Source of the DNA: Enterovirga aerilata
GTDB taxonomy: Bacteria; Pseudomonadota; Alphaproteobacteria; Rhizobiales; Beijerinckiaceae
Length of the DNA: 64,000 nucleotides
Direction: 5' to 3'
Assembly: GCF_013044135.1 (NCBI RefSeq)
Contig: NZ_JABEPP010000004.1
Coordinates: 1 to 64,000 of the forward strand
The translations under genes and the position numbers were made by a program. Below the pieces are notes generated by a model that saw only the letters and a list, made by a program, of their open reading frames with translations, searched no databases and was not told where the DNA came from. Positions 60,054 through 61,116 of the stretch are shown in pieces (within the stretch, counting starts at the first letter, position 1; every line of letters begins with the position of its first letter).

Positions 60054-60599
60054 TCAGCCGGCGGCCTGGCGCGCCCCGAAGGCCATCTTCAGGAGGTCCT
60101 GCTGGATCGAGACCGGGCTCGAGGCGCGCGGGGCGGGCGCCTCCTCGGCCTGGGCGATCAGCGCGTCGAGATGAACGAGGCGGGCGTGAAGACGCAGCGA
60201 CAGCGCGACCAGCTCGCGGAAGCGCTCGGGCATCTCGTCGAAATCCCGCTGGCTGACGGTCGTCTCCTGCACGGCCAGGCGCACCCGGTCCTTCTCGCGC
60301 CGGGCCTGGGCCGGCGTGATCTCGCCCTCGGCGACCGCACGCTGCACCAGGAGCCATGAGGCGATCTGCATCAGCCGCGTCGTGAGCCGCATGCTCTCGC
60401 TGGCATAGGTGAGGGTGGCGTTGCGGCGGAGCAGGGCCGATTCGCTGCGGCCGGGACCGTCGAGATACTCGGCCGTGTCCTCGACCAGCGCCATGCCCTC
60501 TCGGAACAGGGCTTTGAAGGCGTCCGACTTGACGAAGCTCGTCCCGAAGCGGACGAGCCCGCGATCGGCCTCGAACGAGAACTCTGGCTGGCTCAACAC
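60054..60599 (-). CDS. rcdA: Regulator of CtrA degradation RcdA (DUF1465)
   Basis: About 181 residues from GTG 60599, chosen for the perfect AGGAGG (60613-60608) eight bases upstream; an ATG at 60659 would bury this site. The all-helical protein has FVKSDAFKALFREGMALVED, LTYASESMRLTTRLMQIASW and MPERFRELVALSLRLHARLV. This is DUF1465, in Caulobacter the RcdA adaptor that helps ClpXP degrade CtrA through CpdR and PopA. The CtrA-driven RNA unit lies just upstream. The tail is rich in Ala and Pro. Confidence 0.9.
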   Translation of the reverse strand: MLSQPEFSFEADRGLVRFGTSFVKSDAFKALFREGMALVEDTAEYLDGPGRSESALLRRNATLTYASESMRLTTRLMQIASWLLVQRAVAEGEITPAQARREKDRVRLAVQETTVSQRDFDEMPERFRELVALSLRLHARLVHLDALIAQAEEAPAPRASSPVSIQQDLLKMAFGARQAAG

Positions 60600-60735
60600 G
60601 TAACGCCCCTCCTCGTGACGGAACCCTGCCCCGTTCCGGGTCGTTCGGGGCGGCTCCATCGGCGAAGAGCAACTCTAGCGCCGTCAACTCCGAGGCGCCT
60701 CGTTCACTCTCTGTCAAGGTTAACAGGGTGGGGGC

Positions 60736-60831
60736 GCGAAAGAAAAGCCGCCCTTGCGAGCGGCTTGAAAGTGGTAACAGGGAGGCATCAAACAGAGTGG
60801 CAGGCCACTCGAGATCCAGCAAAACTGGACG
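60736..60831 (-). ncRNA. Probable trans-acting small RNA, about 95 nt
   Basis: On the minus strand, hairpin 1 is TCCAG (60829-60825) with CTGGA (60819-60815). Hairpin 2 is GAGTGG with CCACTC (60810-60795), four-base loop. A mainly unpaired stretch contains CCTCCC at 60785-60780. Hairpin 3 is AAGCCGC with GCGGCTT (60766-60745), directly followed by TTTTCTTTC as a terminator. A CtrA-type promoter lies just upstream, with its expected start at hairpin 1. The unpaired anti-Shine-Dalgarno and three-hairpin shape are those of known alphaproteobacterial riboregulators. I cannot assign a named family. Confidence 0.62.
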
Positions 60832-60837
60832 GCTCTG

Positions 60838-60869
60838 GTTATGAAGCGGAAAGCTTAAAGGGCGGTTAA
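60838..60869 (-). promoter_or_regulatory. CtrA box and -10 element for the small RNA
   Basis: TTAA-N7-TTAA is perfect (60869-60855 on the minus strand). The box covers the -35 area, and a -10-like CATAAC (60843-60838) stands 17 bases from the centre of it. This is the usual layout of a CtrA-activated promoter. Confidence 0.65.
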
Positions 60870-60921
60870 GGCCCGGGACACGCTGGCCCAGAACGGAACG
60901 GGTGGTACAGGGCCCGTCGGT

Positions 60922-61116
60922 TCAGGTCCTGAAAAAGGCGCTCGCCGCCTCGCGCGAGGCGGCCTTCCGGCGCGCCTCCTCCTCGATCCGCGCGATCTCG
61001 GCCCTGAGAAGCTCGACGCGCTCCTTCAGCTCGTGCTCGGAGAGGCTCGCCAGGTCGCAGCCGATCTCGTGCGCGACCTGTTTCCTCGGGGCAAGACCGA
61101 ACTCGTCCTCGCGCAT
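60922..61116 (-). CDS. DUF1192 family small protein
   Basis: A 64-residue protein, mostly one helix: MREDEFGLAPRKQVAHEIGC is followed by LSEHELKERVELLRAEIARI and an Ala/Arg tail. This is the DUF1192 pattern, common in Hyphomicrobiales and of unknown function. It is divergent from trcR and precedes the small RNA region. Confidence 0.88.
   Translation of the reverse strand: MREDEFGLAPRKQVAHEIGCDLASLSEHELKERVELLRAEIARIEEEARRKAASREAASAFFRT

Follow-up and report, generated by a model that had tools for sequence, protein, structure and literature searches.

A putative CtrA-driven small RNA gene of the BjrC1505 family beside rcdA in Enterovirga aerilata

In these bacteria the cell cycle is governed by the master regulator CtrA, to whose destruction RcdA contributes. 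Within the 64,000-base stretch of Enterovirga aerilata DNA analyzed here (the window), the minus-strand interval between a DUF1192 gene and rcdA had been predicted to hold a small RNA (sRNA) gene under CtrA control, which raises the question of whether such an RNA exists, what drives it, and which mRNA it might silence. Domain matches to the two flanking genes placed the unit where it had been predicted (Table 1), and TrcR, a cell-cycle regulator, is also among the neighbors. With a probability of roughly two in three, we favor a free-standing BjrC1505 sRNA gene beside rcdA, whose trans-acting product would be driven by CtrA and would block translation at GGGAGG sites; the family, structure, box conservation, synteny, and pairing potential of this RNA were established computationally.

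Table 1. Features of the sRNA locus and its neighbors in the window
Feature	Position	Strand	Evidence
DUF1192 gene, upstream of the sRNA	60925..61116	-	PF06698, 70 bits
CtrA-type box TTAA-N7-TTAA, TTAACCGCCCTTTAA	60855..60869	-	Sole exact match in the window; at least 7/8 letters in 98/101 loci among the matches listed
-10-like CATAAC	60838..60843	-	Positional profile of 98 loci
sRNA, BjrC1505 family	60738..60832	-	Model R1, 77.9 bits; RF02356, 79 bits over 60738-60877
Hairpin 1, within a slightly longer stem	60814..60830	-	6 pairs counted, 5 with double-sided changes
Hairpin 2	60795..60810	-	6 pairs counted, 6/6 with double-sided changes
Conserved unpaired core TTTGATGCCTCCCTGTT, 17 nt	60776..60792	-	12/17 columns invariant in 76 aligned sequences; unpaired in the MFE fold
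Intrinsic terminator, hairpin 60745-60766 then tail TTCTTTC	60738..60766	-	8 pairs counted, 5 with double-sided changes
GTTAACC motif 3' of the terminator, candidate rcdA promoter element	60718..60724	-	Sequence; TTAACC/GGTTAA at this place in 54/98 loci
rcdA (DUF1465), longest reading	60057..60659	-	NF051867 (NCBIfam equivalog), 208 bits, cutoff 170; PF07323

Family and fold of the RNA

The search of Rfam covariance models that had been proposed as a check returned BjrC1505 (RF02356), which the window matches over all 140 model positions (60877-60738) at 79 bits against a gathering threshold of 50. The RNA family is therefore already catalogued in Rfam, of which the original prediction was unaware. 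BjrC1505 is said to originate from work of Madhugiri et al. in RNA Biol in 2012. In the literature searched, one paper names it, in a Herbaspirillum list, and no function for the family came to light. The predicted transcript is about 95 nt long, with its start estimated at 60831-60834, so that only the 3' part of the range first proposed as the RNA unit (60736-60869) stands as RNA, the remainder (60835-60869) being promoter.

The MFE fold bore out the three consecutive hairpins, the last with its tail, and was more stable than expected, with a z-score of -3.47 and none of 200 shuffles folding equally well. The predicted CCTCCC between hairpins 2 and 3 was found at 60785-60780, unpaired in the MFE fold; judged by its letters, it mimics an anti-Shine-Dalgarno. 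To examine the stems in homologues, we used an alignment (A1) in which 166 homologues that scored 6 or more for the box, which served as anchor, were reduced to 85 at 90% similarity and, after exclusion of nine poorly alignable ones, to 76; a transcript-only covariance model, R1, was built from these 76 sequences, the window among them. In the consensus-named structure, the 20 tested pairs form in 95.9% of cells, and 16 of them show double-sided changes. Sliding the pair partners lowered pairing to 33-55% and the covariation score from 0.211 to 0.030-0.064, and the stems thus passed the covariation check set out beforehand.

Of the helices in the RF02356 consensus, hairpins 1 and 2 and the terminator are supported by covariation and the 5' helices are not: the latter form in 44% of cells among the 85 box-anchored sequences, compared with 42% when slid by +1 and 32-40% in the other slides, and in 47.8% versus 42.9% slid over all 166 rows. 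We read the first ~46 columns of the model, its 5' third, as probable promoter DNA rather than RNA. The core TTTGAYGCCTCCCTGTT is nearly invariant across the aligned homologues, partly because the loci were retrieved by the core. RNAalifold offers an alternative in which a weak 5-bp stem closes around CCTCCC; this stem has no double-sided changes, so that loop and open strand are indistinguishable. A coding function was considered and rejected, since 61 of 85 transcripts lack a closed ATG frame and the longest frame has 22 codons. Taken together, these data suggest that the RNA is almost certainly real and would be transcribed from this locus.

Promoter and conservation beside rcdA

The predicted perfect TTAA-N7-TTAA box on the minus strand proved to be the sole exact copy in the window, and 100 dinucleotide shuffles gave none. 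Its conservation was scored in loci that had been picked by the core-plus-terminator pattern, blind to the box; duplicates and loci with short flanks or more core mismatches were dropped beforehand, leaving 101 distinct loci among the matches listed, each with no more than one mismatch in the core and 420 nt or more of upstream sequence. These are many records from few genera rather than 101 independent observations, and 98 of them carry a box with at least seven of eight letters (43 perfect), the best site beginning 75-93 nt before the core, a nearly constant distance. The same loci gave 2 such boxes at -400 to -360 and none at -300 to -260, and shuffles averaged 3.7; a third control, 80-120 nt downstream, gave 15 in 100 loci (13 perfect), which we attribute to a separate rcdA box present in certain lineages. 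Box and hairpins are thus retained in relatives, one of the points on which the original prediction had staked its refutation.

A positional profile of the 98 loci places a family consensus, TATnAC, 12 bases after the box, and CATAAC lies at the identical offset in the window. The predicted hexamer is therefore present, but its "17-base spacing" is nominal. No sigma-70 consensus promoter was found. Activators of this kind have their box just ahead of the -10 element, as at 12 bases here, and TTAA-N7-TTAA stands at the promoter position as in CtrA-activated genes. CtrA very probably acts as an activator of the sRNA promoter.

Homologues came from a DNA search of 100 genomes, from RF02356 run over 289 genomes of the class, and from the core-plus-terminator pattern in named GTDB genomes. 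RF02356 gave 14 matches above its cutoff and 30 at E ≤ 0.001; the exact pattern occurred in at least 118 stretches, and the genera among the matches listed include Bradyrhizobium, Mesorhizobium, Phyllobacterium, Stappia, Roseibium, Bosea, Chelatococcus, and Sneathiella. Among these listed matches, rcdA follows in the same orientation at 83 of the 89 pattern loci with enough flank, and DUF1192 lies within 1.5 kb upstream in 60 of 87. One of the six rcdA misses is a Bradyrhizobium metagenome bin, in which sRNA and box (at ~1613 of the locus) are inverted between DUF1192 and rcdA. Genus g262 has tandem sRNA copies, at 77 and 277 in one locus and at 79514-79595 and 79714-79795 of G661:C6; in the former, the downstream copy has a perfect box, and no box is visible for the upstream copy, which lies close to the end of the contig.

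Model R1 detects the RNA directly ahead of rcdA in two Sinorhizobium records and in Shinella at 43-44 bits, where RF02356 gives no match reaching E 0.01. A perfect box precedes the RNA in all of these, and DUF1192 is annotated in the S. meliloti record alone. R1 matched 59 of the 99 genomes of the window's family. Genera g5 and g36 each gave one locus in which rcdA is present with no recognizable sRNA; a pattern scan of nine loci of the family for a diverged sRNA found nothing, and the stretch of about 90 nt upstream of one Sphingomonas rcdA gave no R1 match. RF02356 matched none of 14 control genomes, including that of Caulobacter vibrioides, which has rcdA. Twenty weak R1 matches were fetched, and seven of them lie near rcdA. 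Seven others (L283-L285, L290, L293, L295, and L296) show a GTCTCCCAGAC hairpin followed by a CCTCCCTGTT-AACTT-terminator 3' module, without rcdA, and the R1 tally for the class (84/385) therefore overcounts the BjrC1505 family.

The same strand and order in so many loci would also fit a CtrA-controlled 5' leader of rcdA whose terminator serves as an attenuator; the "sRNA" would then be this leader after termination, and read-through would give rcdA expression. Published work on transcription start sites in agrobacteria, Sinorhizobium, and Caulobacter likewise reports either several starts for rcdA or CtrA motifs ahead of it (PMC10469942, PMC3616915, and PMC4287350). Several observations nevertheless make a leader unlikely. 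Of 98 loci, 54 have a TTAACC-type motif past the terminator, ahead of rcdA, as against an average of 5.5 in shuffles and one upstream control stretch, which supports the earlier suggestion that rcdA needs its own promoter, and in Sinorhizobium and Shinella (L249, L250, and L253) a second perfect TTAA-N7-TTAA lies between the sRNA terminator and rcdA. The most conserved stretch in the consensus structure examined is the unpaired core and not a switch helix, and both the tandem copies and the inverted sRNA are at odds with a leader. We therefore retain the free-standing sRNA gene as the preferred reading.

Candidate targets and proposed mechanism

The original prediction had named rcdA itself as a possible target through its AGGAGG site. 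The likely rcdA start in the window is a GTG or TTG at 60599/60596, preceded by GAGGAGG (the alternative is an ATG at 60659), and the linkage between the two genes is conserved. Over 139 rcdA starts, however, the duplex energy averages -17.8 kcal/mol, with 14 at or below -22 and none at or below -26, as against -15.8 for the full set of 757 control starts and -17.3 for 172 starts that have a good Shine-Dalgarno; the window's own rcdA duplex has -19.8 kcal/mol. A CtrA-driven sRNA with rcdA as its main target is thus highly improbable.

Target sites were sought instead in the window's family. The pattern GGGAGGCRTCA close to an ATG gave 66 rows at 62 sites in 99 genomes, every one of which was read, and for a second pattern, AACAGGGAGG plus ATG, 78 places among the matches listed were read. 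Clustering of the genes behind both patterns gave 110 proteins, 78 of them singletons, and a single five-member cluster of orthologues, drawn from five genera and entirely from the GGGAGGCRTCA pattern. The clusters from AACAGGGAGG plus ATG, of two to three sequences, were set aside, since they grouped members of general protein families, sequences from two almost identical genomes, or short reading frames. An 18-nt full complement, searched in 248 family genomes, occurred at 36 places in 34 genomes with no shared target; these were mostly the sRNA gene or its variants (four variant places were read), and six other sequence types were single matches.

The protein of the five-orthologue cluster, of ~150 residues, was found in 68 of the 99 family genomes, including that of the window (G000:C4:201913, 146 amino acids), and has no family in Pfam, NCBIfam, or PDB. 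In 30 orthologues with loci read, the duplex reaches -36 kcal/mol, with 14 of the 30 at or below -26.4, and ribosome-site pairing extends to about 17 contiguous bases, taking in bases outside the Shine-Dalgarno. Among the 757 control starts, two reach -26, both being misread starts on the sRNA gene itself. Four of the 14 strong orthologues had been selected by the pattern; the other ten had not, yet most come from the same genus as a selected orthologue, and genus g6 accounts for three. With each genome's own sRNA, the varying base of the core is paired in 21 of 25 genomes (16 C-G and 5 U-A), although this is not an independent test because the duplex program seeks the best pairing; in 18 of these 21, the partner base sits 5-9 nt before the start codon. 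The base is unpaired in G421, G415, G424, and G018, and the own-sRNA duplex is near background (-14.7 to -18.6) in five of the 25 (G006, G424, G040, G016, and G018). The window's genome pairs it as U-A at the site CAGGGAGCGCAUCAGA, with one bulge and -26.7.

Genus g6 of this family counts against the target. Its three genomes (G013, G054, and G413; completeness 97-99%) have no DUF1465 hit, being three of the five genomes without one among 28 checked, and no credible R1 match (two with none at E ≤ 1, the best in G054 being 0.69), yet their target orthologues retain the site at -26.7 to -28.3, three of the 14 strong ones. The 26 long two-domain homologues outside the family showed no stand-out pairing (best -22.3). 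Within 200 nt of promoter sequence per orthologue of the target gene, TTAACC or its complement is present in all 30 and GANTC in 20, which we take to be CtrA half-sites and CcrM sites, respectively. Two TTAA elements 30 bp apart lie between -122 and -86 of the start in 27 of the 30, and the remaining orthologues have the pair further upstream (two) or a 29-bp spacing (one). These promoter motifs would fit cell-cycle control. The promoter contains a strongly conserved block, TTAACCTGAA-N4-GATTCA-...-GTTAAC (L458, 1350-1490, and orthologues), and in many genera a CCGGC/GCCGG hairpin adjoins the Shine-Dalgarno of the gene. We conclude that the core probably pairs with mRNA and that the gene for the ~150-residue protein is likely a better target candidate than rcdA; whether its mRNA is in fact the one repressed we would put at even odds.

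The near-invariance of the core, set beside target pairing confined to one family, would also suit a more general role, as would related 3' modules in SorX/MmgR-like RNAs. The RNA might then be real, with another regulator using the box or with CtrA repressing, and its core might titrate a protein such as Hfq or a ribosome-related factor. We consider this improbable: the box stands 12 bases ahead of the -10-like hexamer, which is the placement expected of an activator, and target pairing extends beyond the Shine-Dalgarno. In the mechanism that we prefer, the CtrA box would form the -35 region of the promoter, so that high levels of phosphorylated CtrA would bring about sRNA synthesis. The open 17-nt core UUUGAYGCCUCCCUGUU, framed by the first two hairpins and the terminator, would pair with ribosome-binding sites having GGGAGG and the adjacent spacer and thereby block translation, the mRNA of the uncharacterized ~150-amino acid protein being the best predicted target in the window's family. 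The sRNA and rcdA, which encodes the adaptor for CtrA destruction, would lie next to each other, both carrying a CtrA-type promoter motif of their own.

A CtrA-type promoter and an anti-Shine-Dalgarno sRNA have been retained next to rcdA in genera ranging from Bradyrhizobium to Sinorhizobium, which suggests that published CtrA sites credited to rcdA may partly belong to an sRNA. We tentatively raise the possibility, though somewhat doubtful, of an ancient branch of the alphaproteobacterial cell-cycle circuit that leads from CtrA to an sRNA, physically linked to rcdA and silencing a small cell-cycle protein in the window's family. If it is true, the branch went unrecognized since the box was credited to rcdA and the Rfam model mixes promoter with RNA; CtrA would control both the repressor sRNA and its target, an incoherent feed-forward loop, and an RNA layer would join transcription and proteolysis, the levels at which this circuit has mainly been studied.

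Comparison with known RNAs

No report of a CtrA-driven sRNA beside rcdA was found in the literature searched, most subscription journals lying outside its coverage. Compared with R1, the catalogued model RF02356 holds ~46 columns that are promoter here and misses the Sinorhizobium and Shinella members. Two S. meliloti RNAs were considered as the homologue in that species and rejected, SmrB35 because it lies between other genes, on pSymB, and SmelB053 because its loop is different. MmgR (RF00519, suhB) and SorX (RF02784) resemble the window's RNA in their 3' module of CCUCCCU, ACUU, and terminator, but the window scores 17.5 bits with RF00519 against a gathering score of 41. When L283-L285 and L290 were compared, three of the four resembled SorX/MmgR, below the thresholds of those families, and the SorX/MmgR-like L283, L284, and L290 are without box and rcdA, unlike the window's sRNA.

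EcpR1/SmelC291, as described in PMC4414408, is likewise a trans-acting sRNA of the Rhizobiales tied to the cell cycle; however, it lies between divK-pleD and rpmG, has the loop UCCGCCGCAUCU, and is induced by stress, whereas the RNA described here has DUF1192 and rcdA as neighbors and is without UCCGCCGCAUCU. The Caulobacter RNA CcnA, as described in PMC8959179, differs in its replication-origin locus, its CCCC loop, and its ctrA and gcrA targets, and the control genome from its host genus is without an RF02356 match. The same source nonetheless describes CcnA as a putatively CtrA-activated noncoding RNA with a C-rich loop that acts at the ribosome-binding sites of cell-cycle mRNAs, a likeness shared by the present sRNA, which adjoins rcdA.
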